Positions 1-55,685 of a DNA stretch of 64,000 nucleotides are shown in pieces (within the stretch, counting starts at the first letter, position 1; every line of letters begins with the position of its first letter). The stretch is from Pseudoxanthomonas sangjuensis (GTDB lineage: Bacteria; Pseudomonadota; Gammaproteobacteria; Xanthomonadales; Xanthomonadaceae). The translations under genes and the position numbers were made by a program. The notes under the pieces are model-generated. The model searched no databases, was not told the origin of the DNA, and saw only the letters and a program-made list of their open reading frames with translations. The stretch covers positions 1 to 64,000 of the forward strand of contig NZ_PDWR01000011.1 of NCBI RefSeq assembly GCF_010211755.1, given 5' to 3'.

Positions 1-1
1 G

Positions 2-91
2 GTCGCGCTGGTAGCCTGCATGCGCAAGCTGCTGACGATCGTCAATGCACGGCGTCGGGACGAGTTGATGGCCTTGGCGGCTGTCGCCTAA
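2..91 (+). CDS. IS110-family transposase, C-terminal end only
   Basis: The window opens inside a reading frame that ends at TAA and gives a 29-residue tail beginning VALVACMRKLLTIVNA. That stretch matches the conserved end of the C-terminal transposase_20 domain of IS110-family (DEDD) transposases, where a V-A-C-M-R-K-L-L-x-I-x-N signature is typical. The rest of the gene lies left of the window, so completeness cannot be judged. Only about 20 bp separate the stop codon from a truncated attC site, so the right end of the insertion sequence is very short or deleted. IS110-family elements that insert specifically in attC sites are known (the IS1111-attC group), which fits this position. The exact subgroup is open. 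Confidence 0.7.
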   Translation, partial: VALVACMRKLLTIVNARRRDELMALAAVA

Positions 92-110
92 AAGGCGTCT
101 TCTCAAGACA

Positions 111-165
111 GTTGCTGAATTAAGCCGAGCCGCGAAGCGGCTTCGGCTTGAATGAATTGTTATGC
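111..165 (-). other. attC site A, truncated at the transposase side
   Basis: On the minus strand this reads GCATAAC (R'' box), AATTCATTCAAGCC, a GC-rich hairpin, then GGCTTAATTCAG, the classical attC (59-base element) layout. The expected R' box (GTTRRRY) is missing: the sequence passes directly into the IS110-family transposase tail. Its R'' box complements the R' box of the attC at 422-481, as expected for the two ends of one cassette. Confidence 0.8.
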
Positions 166-425
166 AGCCCGGAGAGCCGGTGAAGTGAGGCTGCTGAAGA
201 GATCTTAGCCCGGGACAATTGGGATGCGGGAATCACTGGATGTAAGCCGGGAAAGTGAGTGGCCGGGGTTTGTGTGTGCCGGAGCCAAGGCGCCGCCCAC
301 GTGAACCCAAAAATGTAGCCGTCAGCAGAGCGGCGCGAGCGAGCGATTGCGGGACGCGGGCTGTTTTGGCTTTCGCGATAAGCCAGCCATTGCGGCTGAC
401 TACTATCGCTTTTACGACCACGCAT
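120..425 (-). CDS. hypothetical protein of integron cassette 1
   Basis: This 101-codon frame starts at an ATG inside the R' box of the neighbouring attC and runs into the next attC, so its last ~13 residues are encoded by the recombination site. Many cassette genes end that way. The product is rich in Ser, Arg and Pro and has no domain I recognise. A GTG-started frame of 62 codons (233-421) on the same strand is an equally plausible gene, and the cassette may not encode a protein. The presence of a cassette here is much firmer than this particular gene call. Confidence 0.25.
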   Translation of the reverse strand: MRGRKSDSSQPQWLAYRESQNSPRPAIARSRRSADGYIFGFTWAAPWLRHTQTPATHFPGLHPVIPASQLSRAKISSAASLHRLSGLHNNSFKPKPLRGSA

Positions 426-481
426 AACGCCTGAATTAAGCCGAGCCGCGAAGCGGCTTCGGCTTGAATGAATTGTTAGAC
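422..481 (-). other. attC site B
   Basis: A full ~60 bp attC on the minus strand: R'' GTCTAAC, then AATTCATTCAAGCCG, a loop containing CCGCTTCGCGG, CGGCTTAATTCAGGC, and R' GTTATGC. The core is almost identical to sites A and D. The L''/L' asymmetry places the matching gene on the minus strand. Confidence 0.9.
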
Positions 482-491
482 CTGCCGCGGC

Positions 492-851
492 TCACTGACG
501 GAGAAAGCCTAACCACTTACACAAAGCTAGACTGAAAGTTATGGCGAGCGCAACGGCAACGGCCATTGCTGTGATGGTCCAAGCAAAAGACCACTGATGC
601 AATGTGGCAAATGCCAGGTAAGAAATTGAGTATCCAGTCACGAGCAGATGAGCTTTGCCGAAAATCCATTGTCTATGGATGAGCGACGAAAGCGCGCGAA
701 ATGCCAAGACCAATACGGCCAAAAAATGCAGTAGCCCAGCAAAAATTGCCATGCCATGAAACGCGCCATGCTCGAAGAGGAAAACAACGAGCAATATGGC
801 GAGAAGCCCGATGGTGATGAGACTGTCTTTGTCTGGGGTGCGAAATTGCAT
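492..851 (-). CDS. four-helix membrane protein of integron cassette 2
   Basis: Encodes 119 residues with four hydrophobic helices separated by short polar loops, at roughly residues 10-27, 30-52, 66-85 and 88-112, so an inner-membrane location is likely. It lies entirely between attC sites B and C and is read in the cassette direction, as expected for a cassette gene. I recognise no family. Small membrane proteins of unknown role are common in chromosomal integron arrays. Base composition is AT-richer than the chromosomal genes to the right, consistent with separate origin. Confidence 0.7.
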   Translation of the reverse strand: MQFRTPDKDSLITIGLLAILLVVFLFEHGAFHGMAIFAGLLHFLAVLVLAFRALSSLIHRQWIFGKAHLLVTGYSISYLAFATLHQWSFAWTITAMAVAVALAITFSLALCKWLGFLRQ

Positions 852-858
852 GATGCAG

Positions 859-948
859 GTCTAACACCTGAATTAAGCCGGCCCGCCCGAGGAGGGTGGG
901 TTTTGGCCGAGACCGCGAAGCGGGCTCGGCTTGAATGAATTGTTAGGC
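859..948 (-). other. attC site C, enlarged
   Basis: R'' GCCTAAC and R' GTTAGAC bracket a 90 bp site, about 30 bp longer than its neighbours. The outer arms match sites B and D. The extra DNA (around 881-908) is a GC-rich insertion beside the usual central hairpin, which is itself still present around 907-931. The R' box complements the R'' box of site B, confirming the borders of cassette 2. Confidence 0.85.
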
Positions 949-1212
949 CTCATTGGCGTCTGACAAGCGCAGGACAAGCGCTCTTTCTGCAACGTCCGCA
1001 TTGGAGTGTTCGTCGATGTGGACATGGGAACCTTTGACGCCCTGGTCGGCAAGAACAAGCAAATCCACGGCTAGCTGCAGAAGACCGGCGCGATTTGCCC
1101 CAACGACAACCTCGTGGCCGTTGTCTCGAATCTCGATGAAGGACGCCACGGCACCGCCGGCGTTGCCATATTGGAGTTTCACCGCTTCAACGATGGCGGA
1201 AATTTCGGTCAT
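943..1212 (-). CDS. small protein of integron cassette 3, possibly immunity-like
   Basis: Encodes 89 residues starting MTEISAIVEAV; its stop codon falls within the R'' box of attC C, typical of cassette genes. The protein looks like a compact alpha/beta domain: a strand with FIEIRDNGHEVVVGAN, an amphipathic helix, then GSHVHIDEHS. A small domain ending in a G-x-H-x-H-x-D-E motif recalls polymorphic-toxin immunity families such as Imm32, but that is a weak pattern match from memory. Function remains open. Confidence 0.65.
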   Translation of the reverse strand: MTEISAIVEAVKLQYGNAGGAVASFIEIRDNGHEVVVGANRAGLLQLAVDLLVLADQGVKGSHVHIDEHSNADVAERALVLRLSDANEA

Positions 1213-1215
1213 GAG

Positions 1216-1275
1216 GCCTAACGCCTGAATTAAGCCGCGCCGCGAAGCGGCGTCGGCTTGAATGAATTGTTAGGC
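1216..1275 (-). other. attC site D
   Basis: Full 60 bp attC on the minus strand with perfectly complementary R'' GCCTAAC and R' GTTAGGC boxes, AATTCATTCAAGCCG and CGGCTTAATTCAGGC arms and a CCGCTTCGCGGCG loop. It closely resembles the attC of aadA-type cassettes in mobile integrons. Confidence 0.9.
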
Positions 1276-1785
1276 CGCACTTGCGACCCGGCTGAGTATC
1301 CACTCAATGGATTGGTTAATTGAGCTGTCACGAATAGAAAGATCATGTCCGCCGTGATCAAACTGGCAGCCAGAAACGCTCTGCAAGCATTTTGGATCCT
1401 GTTGCATTTGATCAAGCGTCCACTGCCAAAGGTCGCGGTATATTCCGTAGCTCCACCAGTCGGAGAAGTGGCAAATAATGACTGGACAATCTGGCTTGGA
1501 GCTTAGCTCACCGCGAAGATATGGCCAGTATTTGAGCAAGTTGGAAATAGGTACTTGCTTGCTCTCAAACTCAATGACGATCTTATGGCCATTAAAGGTA
1601 GTCGTTAGGTCTCCAAGCTCAAAGCGCTCGGCTTTGTTGTATAGCCCGCCGCGCCTTCCGGCTTGATGTGTTAGCAGACTGGCGGTGTTGGCCCTGGCTT
1701 GTCCGCCTGCCCAGGAGGCATTTGGTGCCTTTTTGAGGAATGCCTCAGTGAACTCCAGCAGAAAAGCTGTTTGAGTTGCCCCCAT
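1270..1785 (-). CDS. hypothetical protein of integron cassette 4, possible PD-(D/E)XK fold
   Basis: Encodes 171 residues. I chose the ATG at 1785 because GAGG lies six bases upstream; a TTG four codons earlier overlaps that site. The stop codon is in the R'' box of attC D. No family is recognised by name. Residues around 60-85 read ELGDLTTTFNGHKIVIEFESK: an Asp, about a dozen residues, a hydrophobic strand and E-S-K, which is the spacing of a PD-(D/E)XK nuclease core. The region after it is rich in Trp (YWPYLRGEL, SDWWSYGIYRDLWQW). This is the cassette nearest the integrase end and so was probably the last one inserted. Confidence 0.7.
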   Translation of the reverse strand: MGATQTAFLLEFTEAFLKKAPNASWAGGQARANTASLLTHQAGRRGGLYNKAERFELGDLTTTFNGHKIVIEFESKQVPISNLLKYWPYLRGELSSKPDCPVIICHFSDWWSYGIYRDLWQWTLDQMQQDPKCLQSVSGCQFDHGGHDLSIRDSSINQSIEWILSRVASAA

Positions 1786-1807
1786 TTGCGACCTCAATCG
1801 GTGTGCG

Positions 1808-1973
1808 GCCTAACGCCTAATAGACCCCAAATCGGGGTGATATGACGAAGTATCCGCGGCCCGGGCGGGGCGTTCAAGGGGCGAATTCCTACGCATAATC
1901 AAGCTGTTGACCGATAGCCACGGGCCGGTCATGGCGACAATCCTGCCTTGCATATTTCAATTTGCGAGGCGAT
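1808..1973 (-). other. attI-like junction and intI/cassette promoter region
   Basis: The GCCTAAC at 1808-1814 reads GTTAGGC on the minus strand and is the left border of cassette 4, where an attI site should lie. The 160 bp up to the integrase start contain no gene and a short hairpin (ACCCC/GGGGT around 1825-1839). In intact integrons this interval carries attI, the cassette promoter and the divergent intI promoter. No individual promoter box can be assigned with confidence. Confidence 0.5.
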
Positions 1974-2186
1974 ATGCCATATCCATCACGAAATGCGCCG
2001 ATAAACCGGTCTGCTATCGGTAGCGGATCGCCCCGGTTGCTCGATGAAGTCAGGCGGCGCATCCGCGTCAGGCATTACAGCCTGCGCACCGAGCACATCT
2101 ATGTCGGTTGGATAAGGCGCTTCATCCTCGCCAACGGCAAGCGCCATCCCCGCGACATGGGCGCCGCCGAAGTCGAGGCCATATTC
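1974..2186 (+). pseudogene. intI: integron integrase, truncated remnant
   Basis: From the ATG the frame gives about 71 residues, including SPRLLDEVRRRIRVRHYSLR, then TEHIYVGWIRRFILANGKRH and MGAAEVEAIF. This is the N-terminal core-binding (SAM-like) domain of IntI tyrosine recombinases. All of the catalytic domain (R-H-R-Y residues and the IntI-specific patch, normally to ~320-340 residues) is absent. The frame continues beyond codon 71 only as the antisense of the phosphatase gene. The protein cannot recombine DNA, so the array is frozen unless an integrase acts in trans. Its divergent orientation relative to the cassettes is standard. Confidence 0.85.
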
Positions 2187-2207
2187 CAACCGGAACCGCG
2201 TAGCGGT

Positions 2208-3899
2208 TCACTTCTTCTCGAAATCCGCCGGCTTTGGCAATTCCACCGGCACGCCGTTCGCGTCGCAGGTGCCGGCCGCACACAGCCGTTCGCGCAGTTT
2301 CGGCGTGGCCTGCACGATGAAGTGGTAGATGACATTCTCTTCCACCGTGCCGTGGATCGCCTCGCTGCCCGGGCCGCGCGCCCAGATGCCGACGTCGTCG
2401 CCGCCGTGGGTCTCGGCCCGGGTCGGGAAGAGCGTTTCCTGCATGTAGTCCGGGTCCTCGGTGTCGACGCTGCGCAGGTCGGGGCGGCCGGCGGCGGGCT
2501 CGAAGCTGCGCGGCGAATGCTCGAAACGCTTCGGCCCGGCCGGCTGTTTGTCGCTGGCGCCGGCGTAACCGGGGCCGTTGGCGTAGTTGATCGTGGTGTA
2601 GGGCAGGCCGAGGCCGTCGAGCGCGTAGCCGCCGCCGGTGCTTTCGCCGCTGCCGCCGCGCACCTTGCCGAGGATCGGGTTGCCACGCACCGGGTAGCCG
2701 ACGAAGCTCATCGTGTGCGAATGGTCGGCGGTGACGATGATCAGCGTGTCGTCGGCCGAAGTCGCATCGGCCGCGGCCTGCACCGCTTCCGACAGCGCGA
2801 CCGCGTCGCTGAGCGCGCGGTAGGCGTTGCCGGAATGGCTGGCGTGGTCGATGCGGCCGCCTTCGACCATCAGCACGTAGCCGTTCGGGTTCTTTTTCAG
2901 CACGTCGATCGCGGCGACGGTCATCTGCGCCAGGCTCGGCTCGCCGCCCTTGTCCTTCGGCCGGTCGTGCTCGTACTGCAGGTGGTCGTAGTTGAACAGG
3001 CCCAGCAGCGTCGGCGCGTCCTTCGCCGCGGCGAACTGCTGCGCATTCCATACGTACGCGCCGCCGGGATGCGCGGCCTTCCATTCCTCGATCAGGTTGC
3101 GGCCGTCGCGGCGCGCGCCGATCTCGCCGGTTTCCTCGGGATCGGCCGCGGTCGTCGGCAGGAAGTTGCGGCGGCCGCCGCCCATCAGCACCTGCGGGCC
3201 GCGGCCGTAGCGCGTGTCGAGGAATTGCTGGGCGATGTCGCGGCAACCCTGCTGCACCGCCTCGGCCGGTAGGTCGGTGTCGTTCTCCCAGCCGCGGTTC
3301 GGCGAATGGGCCCACGATGCGGCCGGGGTGGCGTGGGTCACGCGTGTGGTGGTGACGATGCCGGCGGACAGGCCGGCGCTGTCGGCCAGTTCCAGCCAGT
3401 TGAGCAGGCGGTGCCGCAGGCTCTGCGCGCAGTCCTTGCGGTCGCCGGCGGAGACGCCGATCGCGCCCATGTGGGTCTTCACGCCGGTGGTGATCGCGCT
3501 CATCGTGCCGGCCGAATCCGGCACCTGCGAATTGGTGTTGTAGGTCTTGCTGAACGCGGTGGCGGGGAACTTCTCCCACGACAGCAGGTTTTCCTCGCCC
3601 GGCTTGCCCTTGCGCTGGCCGTCGAAGATGCGCGCGGCGGCGACCGTGGTCAGGCTCATGCCGTCGCCGAGGAACAGGATCACGTTTTTCGCCTTGCCGC
3701 CCATCGCGCCGTTGGCCGCCGCGCGCGCCGCGGCGCTGCGGTACCACCACTGCGGGGTCTCGCCGCCGGGGTGGGCGACCGCCGGCACGTCGACGTGCCA
3801 GGACTTGTCGGTCGCGCCGGTCGTCGGCGCCGTCGTGGCGCAGCCCGCGAGCAGGGTCAGGGCGGCGGTGCAGGAAAGGGCGGGAGCGAAGCGATGCAT
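2208..3899 (-). CDS. alkaline phosphatase family lipoprotein
   Basis: Encodes 563 residues of the PhoA superfamily (PF00245), which hydrolyses phosphomonoesters outside the cytoplasm. The signal peptide ends in lipobox LLAGC with lipid Cys at residue 20. Metal and catalytic motifs are visible: LGDGMS near residue 79, the nucleophile Ser at about 129 in VPDSAGT, TADHSH about residue 400 and a later GGDDVGIWARGPG. I chose the start that gives the signal peptide; the upstream in-frame extension is antisense of the symporter gene. Its stop codon lies about 20 bp from the broken end of the intI remnant, so an integron deletion ended at its 3' edge without damaging it. Phosphate regulation is likely by analogy, but no Pho box was identified. 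Confidence 0.88.
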   Translation of the reverse strand: MHRFAPALSCTAALTLLAGCATTAPTTGATDKSWHVDVPAVAHPGGETPQWWYRSAAARAAANGAMGGKAKNVILFLGDGMSLTTVAAARIFDGQRKGKPGEENLLSWEKFPATAFSKTYNTNSQVPDSAGTMSAITTGVKTHMGAIGVSAGDRKDCAQSLRHRLLNWLELADSAGLSAGIVTTTRVTHATPAASWAHSPNRGWENDTDLPAEAVQQGCRDIAQQFLDTRYGRGPQVLMGGGRRNFLPTTAADPEETGEIGARRDGRNLIEEWKAAHPGGAYVWNAQQFAAAKDAPTLLGLFNYDHLQYEHDRPKDKGGEPSLAQMTVAAIDVLKKNPNGYVLMVEGGRIDHASHSGNAYRALSDAVALSEAVQAAADATSADDTLIIVTADHSHTMSFVGYPVRGNPILGKVRGGSGESTGGGYALDGLGLPYTTINYANGPGYAGASDKQPAGPKRFEHSPRSFEPAAGRPDLRSVDTEDPDYMQETLFPTRAETHGGDDVGIWARGPGSEAIHGTVEENVIYHFIVQATPKLRERLCAAGTCDANGVPVELPKPADFEKK

Positions 3900-3973
3900 T
3901 TGACGGTTCCGGGGGGCGAATAGGGAACGATTATGCCAACAGGCGCAAATGTCTTGTCGATGACACGGCTCTT

Positions 3974-40004: not shown

Positions 40005-40481
40005 TCAGCAACGAGAGTCTCTGGGTCCGGCCGACGTCCCCCCGAACTCGCGCAGCACACCACGCAACAGATTGAGCGTGGCAGTGCGTTCGGCCTTCAG
40101 GTGTTCACGCAGCCGGTGCAAGGCCTGGATGCCCTGCTGTTCCGGCGTCTTCACCGGCACTTCGGCAATGACCGCGCAGCGATCGGCTTCCCGCATCCCG
40201 GCCACGTCATTTCGGTCGGTCTTGTTGCCGCGCACGTAAGGCCGCACGTCCCGCGCCGGAATCAGCCGCACCGCGTGCCCCTGACGCTGGAAACGCCGCG
40301 CCCAGTAGTGCGCGCTGCCGCACGCCTCCATCAGCACCCGCAACGGGGGACGCAGTTCCAACGTCCGCGTGAACGCCTTGCGCGACAGCCGCTTGCGCTC
40401 GATCACCCGGCCCTGCGCGTCGGCGAAGGCCAGTTCGAAGACGTCTTTTGCCAGATCGATGGCGACGGTACTAGCATGCAT
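40005..40481 (-). pseudogene. IS110-family transposase, C-terminally truncated
   Basis: The open frame gives 158 residues, of which about the first 147 match the N-terminal DEDD catalytic domain of IS110-family transposases: Asp9 (VAIDLAKDVF), Glu52 (LMEACGSAHYW) and Asp89/Asp92 (NKTDRND), ending in the coiled LNLLRGVLREFG. Intact members are ~320-400 residues with a C-terminal serine-containing transposase_20 domain, absent here. The last ~11 codons are read-through of unrelated DNA. The element is non-functional. It is not the same fragment as the transposase tail at the left edge, and whether both come from one IS type cannot be told. Confidence 0.85.
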
Positions 40482-40570
40482 GGCGTGGACTCCTCTCGTG
40501 CTCCCGTGTCCCGATCCAGTATCGGCCTGGCTCGTCGAAGCCGTGTGGCGACGCGGGAGGAGTCCATCTC
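40482..40570 (-). other. structured 5' leader of the IS110 remnant (possible bridge RNA)
   Basis: Immediately upstream of the transposase start, GGACTCCTC (40487-40495) pairs with GAGGAGTCC (40557-40565). Between them are smaller stems (CCGAT/ATCGG around 40512-40526 and GGCT/AGCC around 40527-40541). A structured non-coding 5' end is where IS110-group elements encode their bridge (seek) RNA. The identification is inference from position and structure. Confidence 0.4.
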
Positions 40571-40635
40571 ATCATTCAAGCCGAAATCGCGTCACGGCTC
40601 GGCCTGACTCAGCATTGGCATGCGGAGACAGATCA

Positions 40636-55453: not shown

Positions 55454-55473
55454 CGCGCGCGAAACCGCGCGCG
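55454..55473 (-). promoter_or_regulatory. GC-rich hairpin between glycine riboswitch and gcvP
   Basis: CGCGCGCG pairs with CGCGCGCG-type arms around a GGTTTC-like loop, 20 bp before the gcvP start region. It lies where an expression platform would be and could mask or expose the translation start. Inference only. Confidence 0.4.
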
Positions 55474-55477
55474 GGTG

Positions 55478-55685
55478 CCCCTCTGTCCTTTTGCCTGAGA
55501 GTTTGGAGGCGGCGTTCCGATGGAAGCCGGCCTCGTGCCCCTTCGGCGCCGGCGTGCGCCGATGCTTTGGCGGGCCGGTCTCTCCAGAGTGTTGTTGCGA
55601 TGGTGGTATTCGGCCTGAGCGATTACGGGCGTTTGCGCCTTCGGCAGCGGGGCCGGGGCCCGCGCTTCTCCCACCGGGAATTGCC
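55478..55685 (-). promoter_or_regulatory. tandem glycine riboswitch
   Basis: On the minus strand the leader shows both glycine aptamers. The first has GGTGGGAGAAGCGCGGG, GCTGCCGAAGGCGCAAACGC and CGCTCAGGCCGAATACC. A short linker leads to CACTCTGGAGAGACC. The second has GCGCCGAAGGGGCACGAGGC and ends CTCTCAGGCAAAAGGACAG. These are the conserved GGAGA, GCCGAAGG-GGC and CTCAGGC-AAAAGGACAG elements. Two aptamers are typical of the classical cooperative form. Regulates gcvP directly downstream. Confidence 0.92.

Follow-up and report, generated by a model that had tools for sequence, protein, structure and literature searches.

Whether an integron is counted, and whether it is regarded as active or dead, commonly depends on the intI gene beside the cassette array. 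Arrays away from such a gene, termed CALINs (clusters of attC sites lacking integron-integrases), may be mobilised in trans by a distant integrase, IntI, according to the available parts of two reports (PMC12444791; PMC9668308). In Xanthomonas, the accessible sections of a survey describe sedentary chromosomal integrons at ilvD, CALINs at conserved loci, truncated intI genes and a progressive loss of activity; those sections mention attI only broadly, as something that primers target and that detection can optionally include, and describe none at a CALIN (PMC12444791). Here we describe one end of a 64,000-nucleotide stretch of Pseudoxanthomonas sangjuensis DNA (contig NZ_PDWR01000011.1, positions 1 to 64,000; hereafter the window), in which a cassette array with its attI site adjoins a short piece of intI. 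A first-pass annotation of these letters called the locus a decayed, dead chromosomal integron and its cassettes a frozen sample. Such terms fit poorly, given an intact IntI elsewhere in the genome, a head copied from beside that gene, an attI core identical to the one there, predicted promoter hexamers that are present if weak, and the frequency of similar sites in the genus together with their conservation at one chromosomal position. Judged from its sequence, this end of the window is probably a satellite integron platform, one of several attI-promoter platforms that would be served in trans by a single IntI.

The window genome (76 contigs, 99.96% completeness) has one intact IntI, on contig C30, which scores 485 bits where the cut-off is 265; its residues 21–334 align with Vibrio cholerae IntI4 (PDB 2a3v; E 3e-94). 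The attI head occurs five times: with the whole intI on C30, in the window (contig C2), and on C21, C24 and C7, with 92–98% identity. Over 374 bp, the window head shares 97.9% identity with that of C30, in an alignment ending 69 codons into intI, while the C21, C24 and C7 heads lose homology to the window at 2005–2007, just within the start of intI (by eye, these three breaks fall at or just past TGATAA). C7 and C21 have 302 bp in common, approximately 100 bp beyond the head, and chromosomal flank was therefore copied along with it. Further attC sites lacking the attI pattern are found on C7 (in another region), C13, C31, C33, C34, C38, C44 and C55. At approximately 190–230 nt from attI, many orphan heads (those whose attI has no intact intI beside it) retain by eye a block resembling TTATCAGGGC...GGGGTGATAACG, which in IntI-bearing heads overlaps the start of intI.

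The attI module of the window (1808–1877, strand not assigned) comprises the core GCCTAAC, the block TAACNNCTANTAGACCCC-N5-GGGG and the promoter hexamers that follow. The module lies next to the first cassette, as in an integron, and its block recurs beside the intact intI of C30 and in other genomes of the genus; the core is identical to that of C30. The hexamers make up a predicted cassette promoter (Pc; 1849–1877, minus strand), with a -35 element TTGAAC at 1872–1877, a 17-nt spacer and a -10 element GATACT at 1849–1854. On the plus strand, 1974–2180 carries 69 codons copied from the start of the C30 intI. DNA homology stops at 2180, which slightly shortens the approximately 71 codons first annotated, and the assignment to IntI is upheld: in the 78-aa translation of 1974–2207, residues 19–71 match NF011946 (4.2e-14; profile positions 13–65 of 337) and residues 22–70 match TIGR02249 (5.1e-13; positions 1–49 of 315), PF13495 is matched as well (4.9e-12), and all of these family matches are at N-terminal positions alone. 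Over 70 residues, the fragment shares 97% identity with the intact IntI encoded on C30. What lies beside the window attI is thus not a functional intI but these 69 codons, the intact gene being on C30.

The platform borders an alkaline phosphatase gene (2208–3900, minus strand; PF00245, 2.2e-128), as annotated, and we call this position, 3' of the phosphatase gene, site P. The intI fragment lies directly beside attI in the correct divergent orientation, as it would if a complete chromosomal integron had once stood by the phosphatase gene, had lost most of its intI in place and were now dead. This history appears very unlikely: the window head is a near-identical copy of the C30 head, the three other orphan heads break elsewhere, and an intact IntI is present in the same genome. 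Moreover, a comparison with related genomes at this site, suggested by the annotation as a way of finding an intact intI, yielded none: site P carries attI in three of 38 genomes (the window genome, G005 and G020; phosphatase positions were compared with the attI positions of the strict and relaxed searches described below), and the G005 and G020 attI sites there have no intI match. Because of these integrase-free sites and the C30 copy, the intI piece in the window more likely arrived with the head than was left by decay. At the phosphatase-side platform, a copy of the C30 head probably took the place of the earlier one, and the 69 codons would be a part that rode along, with the look of decay.

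Orphan attI sites recur across the sample of 38 congeneric genomes (G-numbers). A strict attI pattern matched in 20 of these genomes and its reversed-pattern control in none; a relaxed pattern matched in 24, with one match for the reversed control. The strict pattern missed G005, G010, G029, G037, an extra G027 site and the attI beside IntI in G012; G007 C23, G009 C18 and G016 C3 escaped the relaxed one. Counts given here combine both, and neither pattern fits the IntI-adjacent attI of G026 or that of G030. Searching the genus by head homology recovered mainly intI starts and short attI cores, and the pattern was the better probe. IntI scored above the cut-off in 26 of the 38 genomes: G023 and G036 have two copies and the others one (broken into two frames in G014). 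None of the 24 attI-bearing genomes lacks an orphan attI, and in 21 of these an intact IntI is present elsewhere in the genome. Thirty-four orphan loci were read outside the window genome (L117–L141, L339, L341–L348): on the array side, 30 show one or more attC sites oriented as in cassettes (covariance model, best 300 of 340 matches), and three of the remaining four have less than 400 bp of contig there. Long arrays include those with 19 attC sites in 7.4 kb (G032) and 16 in 8 kb (G023). In G029, two attC sites lie outside the array, on the opposite side of the orphan attI (L344 1155–1681). That orphan heads are assembly artefacts was considered and rejected, because the single-contig genomes G023, G025, G026 and G027 have orphan attI sites.

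Many of these platforms occupy conserved chromosomal positions, which were defined by clustering the flanking open reading frames (ORFs); the family names ComEC-like, kinase-like and ABC-transporter were read by eye from translations. Site B comprises 14 orphan platforms at one place, 3' of a kinase-like gene (a symporter plus PAS histidine kinase by translation) that is present in 37 of the 38 genomes. Thirty of those loci were read. Where the copy of the gene has at least 90% identity, attI is present at 14 of 15 loci (15 species, one clade), the exception being G021; at the 15 more distant loci, there is none. On a tree of the kinase-like protein, site-B attI needs two changes by parsimony, readable as one gain and one loss, and G021 is sister to G009 (clade support is 83/96 and is drawn open, the bootstrap not being settled). 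Site B was not seen at 17 attI heads of other genera. The G009 platform at site B has four attC sites spaced exactly 367 bp apart (L120 5285–6445), which looks like a tandemly repeated cassette.

The annotation compared the locus with ilvD, the usual integron neighbour in Xanthomonas; this holds for that genus, but here 11 of the 13 clustered IntI-bearing platforms (not G000 or G025) adjoin a ComEC-like gene at what we term site A, where the intI-deleted platform of G011 is also found. Site A is based on ORF clusters (12 loci) and one translated member, and tblastn with the ComEC-like neighbour at 1e-25 reached three heads only. By translation, the neighbour at site-A loci (L142, L145, L150 and others) is a DNA-uptake protein. 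In G008, an orphan with an intI remnant lies at the site corresponding, by shared flank, to that of the C30 IntI in the window genome; remnants of intI beside attI are found in G005, G029, G008, G011 and the window.

At site B, the attI core has been kept beside flanks that have diverged. The distance between site-B heads is 0.17 in the attI pattern columns, which are biased towards conservation as the heads were found by that pattern, and 0.30 in the 20 core columns outside it; it is 0.00 for the word GTCAA, 0.62 for the promoter spacer and 0.64 for the next 60 nt. In the reading direction of the cassettes, the conserved words form a promoter-like pair, commonly TTGACG and, after a variable spacer of 17–18 nt, AATACT or CAGAAT. 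In 58 of the 62 heads, the end of the best promoter match is 36–40 nt from attI, compared to 5% of shuffles, and in 43 of the 62 this match scores at least 9 of 12, compared to 4.7% of shuffles, these heads being homologous and not independent.

The attI sites of one genome also resemble each other. In 14 genomes, the IntI-side head was paired with the site-B head (of the former, 10 were placed at site A, leaving those of G007, G012, G028 and G030 unplaced, and that of G011 is without an intact IntI). The distance between the attI cores of IntI-side and B heads is 0.124 in the same genome and 0.227 in different genomes, with p values of 2e-5 for the 14 pairs (the floor of 50,000 permutations), 6e-5 for 10 pairs after thinning and 0.0036 for 7. 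Outside the pattern columns, the matching has p values of 2.8e-4 (14 pairs) and 0.005 (10 pairs). A wider within-genome test (26 genomes, p 2e-5) was set aside as confounded by genus-level ancestry, and the site-B test was relied on. In both G005 and G010, the orphan attI sites are nearly identical to the attI beside IntI, and the orphan attI sites of G029 are nearly identical to each other. As a separate observation, where attI has GGC or GGT before its core, most attC sites in the array carry the same letters (GGT at 17 of 19 in G023A, GGC at 19 of 19 in G032B); G019 is mixed, and arrays whose attI has GTA or GTT (G008, G025, G026) do not match.

If each ancestor had carried several independent complete integrons, each of which lost its intI, and the remaining IntI served none of the others, then intI remnants would be expected beside attI, as they are in G005, G008, G011 and G029. 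Such a history would leave unexplained both the conservation of site-B attI without intI and the tendency of attI to match the attI of the surviving IntI, and we regard it as highly improbable.

Near-identical cassettes are found on different platforms. Among 260 complete cassettes, from 33 of the 41 platforms read, five pairs are 99–100% identical and lie on different platforms of one genome: three join an IntI-bearing array to an orphan (G027A/G027B, G018A/G018B and G019A/G019B) and two join orphans (G019B/G019C and G026x/G026y). The best cross-genome pair has 97.0% identity. In all five pairs, identity extends from the preceding attC, through the cassette, to 5–9 nt past the start of the core GTTAG; these limits follow the pattern of cassette movement and not of duplication of a longer segment. 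Complete cassettes are available on both A and B in seven genomes, three of which share one at this level. The contents of orphan arrays mostly differ between species.

A further explanation is that the platforms are passive debris: copying or segmental duplication would scatter heads that persist unused, their likeness within a genome being due to gene conversion only. Three observations speak for debris, namely the flank shared by C7 and C21 beyond the head, the intI remnants beside attI in five genomes, and the attI sites of G003, G011 and G029, which persist without an intact IntI in the genome. It follows from the last that attI can outlast its integrase, and this is the main result against a strict dependence on IntI. 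Other points also weigh against satellite platforms in use. Likeness between attI sites could arise by gene conversion alone, with no use of the sites. A genome's own B attI is the nearest, or ties for nearest, in no more than five of the 14 genomes, and the within-genome matching is therefore a tendency; the 45 columns next to attI give a weak within-genome signal too (p 0.04), and the bias of the pattern columns counts on the same side. The predicted Pc of the window is weak by consensus, with 8 of 12 positions where the best of shuffles averages 7.2, and the orphan attI of G010 C20 has no attC at E 1e-5 in approximately 7 kb on its array side. With respect to cassettes, of the seven genomes in which A and B both have complete cassettes, four share none at 98% identity or more, and the shared ones could also stem from separate acquisitions. 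The window cassettes have no second copy in their own genome, where arrays are cut by insertion sequences (IS) and contig ends, and none of its few complete cassettes elsewhere is shared.

Debris is nevertheless an unlikely account of the whole. It does not sit well with the retention of site B in 14 of 15 species and an attI core conserved beside diverged DNA, with orphan arrays that reach 19 attC sites in 7.4 kb and mostly differ in content between species, or with shared cassettes that have cassette-like ends. We prefer satellite platforms served by one IntI. The IntI encoded on C30 most likely binds satellite attI and attC sites in trans; it would insert cassettes at a satellite attI and excise them from arrays, such that cassettes could move between arrays, and each satellite's own predicted Pc would transcribe the adjoining cassettes. 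Copying from the platform that bears IntI, through either gene conversion or IntI-mediated exchange of attI, may keep the heads alike, as may selection for recognition by that IntI.

This arrangement appears to extend beyond the genus. In a family sample of 395 genomes, the strict attI pattern matches 42, 23 of which are outside the genus. Eight of these 23, in five genera, have at least two attI sites: in six (G378, G371, G347, G156, G113 and G286), an IntI head is accompanied by at least one head with no IntI match but with upstream attC, and in the other two (G111 and G073), each of the heads matches IntI in whole or in part. We lean towards the view that integrons of the Lysobacteraceae are multi-platform, with one integrase gene maintaining two to five attI-promoter arrays at separate places on the chromosome, the sites staying alike within a genome and the integrase-free platforms being inherited over speciation as working parts. 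If so, the multiplying unit would be the array and not the integrase locus. If one IntI does serve several attI-headed arrays, some of those classed as CALINs or as decayed integrons may be live, the first-position cassette of each array would be under its own promoter (and several first cassettes could be expressed together in one cell), and the presence of CALINs at conserved chromosomal positions would have a possible explanation. The question raised is whether IntI loads cassettes into a distant attI of the same chromosome.

The window array was examined with an attC covariance model built from 27 sites, all from genomes other than that of the window (two-sided changes in 10 of 19 pairs; covariation score matched by 0 of 500 shuffles). 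All four annotated attC sites are scored, each on the minus strand: site 1, closest to attI, at 1216–1275 (91.7 bits); site 2, with a long loop, at 859–948 (74.9 bits); site 3 at 422–481 (82.6 bits); and the outermost, site 4, at 106–165 (58.1 bits). Three are whole, and the fourth is interrupted by the right end of an IS110-family element, which takes the place of its R' side. By this model, the array has head-to-tail attC sites that fold as single strands, as an integron should. The two points on which the first-pass annotation had staked its integron call beforehand, that the fragment belongs to IntI and that the four sites score as attC, thus both held. Over the full 64 kb, the model gives eight matches at E ≤10: the four array sites, three opposite-strand echoes, and a lone weak attC-like site at 40562–40619 (19.7 bits, E 0.018). 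The latter adjoins a truncated IS110-type transposase (40005–40619; PF01548, 1.4e-11). Rfam at gathering scores finds no attC in the window, its single match being a glycine riboswitch (aptamer at 55473–55597, minus strand, 54.9 bits).

Three cassette ORFs, all on the minus strand, read away from the plus-strand intI fragment, in agreement with the annotated divergence. Cassette 1 (1270–1797) encodes 175 aa with no family above cut-off, cassette 2 (943–1212) an 89-aa Immunity protein 32-like protein (Imm32; PF15566, 1.9e-8), and cassette 3 (492–851) 119 aa with no family match; the fourth, outermost cassette has a single 101-aa ORF, also with no family match. The IS right end occupies 1–113 (plus strand), with the final 29 transposase codons and stop at 2–91. 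Base 1 of the window is base 1 of contig C2 and lies inside this IS; since the contig begins there, the array length and the annotated count of four cassettes are lower bounds. The same IS end is present on C30, C21, C7, C24, C31 and C44, and its assignment to the IS110 family rests on the C31 copy, in which a longer transposase C-terminus matches PF02371 (2.1e-14). The insertion point in attC is identical at all 11 junctions seen (seven right and four left ends, the window included). C44 carries an internally deleted IS110-family element (L015 5870–6225), in which the first 10 transposase codons are fused to the last 29; it is bounded by the two ends that break attC sites elsewhere in the window genome.

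The described systems can now be set beside this locus. The IS110/IS1111-type element at one attC end resembles the IS1111-attC group, insertion sequences that target attC (PMC11187229), in Transposase_20 and target position, the two features compared; in the window, the IS is only a local feature. With the Xanthomonas ilvD integrons, as described in the accessible sections of the survey (PMC12444791), the platforms share the bacterial family, a truncated intI and integrase-free arrays at conserved positions; they differ in locus and in having attI at the integrase-free arrays. With at least two attC sites and only an intI fragment nearby, the window platform falls among the CALINs, and like those described in the available sources it is an attC array away from intI that is possibly mobilised by a distant IntI. 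Unlike them, each platform here retains attI and a probable, predicted promoter, and could thus receive cassettes at the proper entry site and express them. CALIN usually denotes attC sites only, with no attI, as a matter of usage and not as a formal criterion; the window array, with its attI, is not of this attC-only kind. In a literature coverage that excludes preprints and most subscription journals, no paper was found on "orphan attI" as a topic, and one precedent was found for an attI-headed CALIN, a weak sign of novelty given that coverage. This precedent is the Shewanella prophage M16-3, in which, according to the part of the report available, one IntI and two attI-headed arrays lie in one element, the same architecture as that of the platforms described here (PMC9892861). 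M16-3 is a single prophage, whereas the Pseudoxanthomonas platforms are chromosomal, are found in 24 of 38 genomes of the genus as well as in other genera, and occupy a site that is conserved over a clade.

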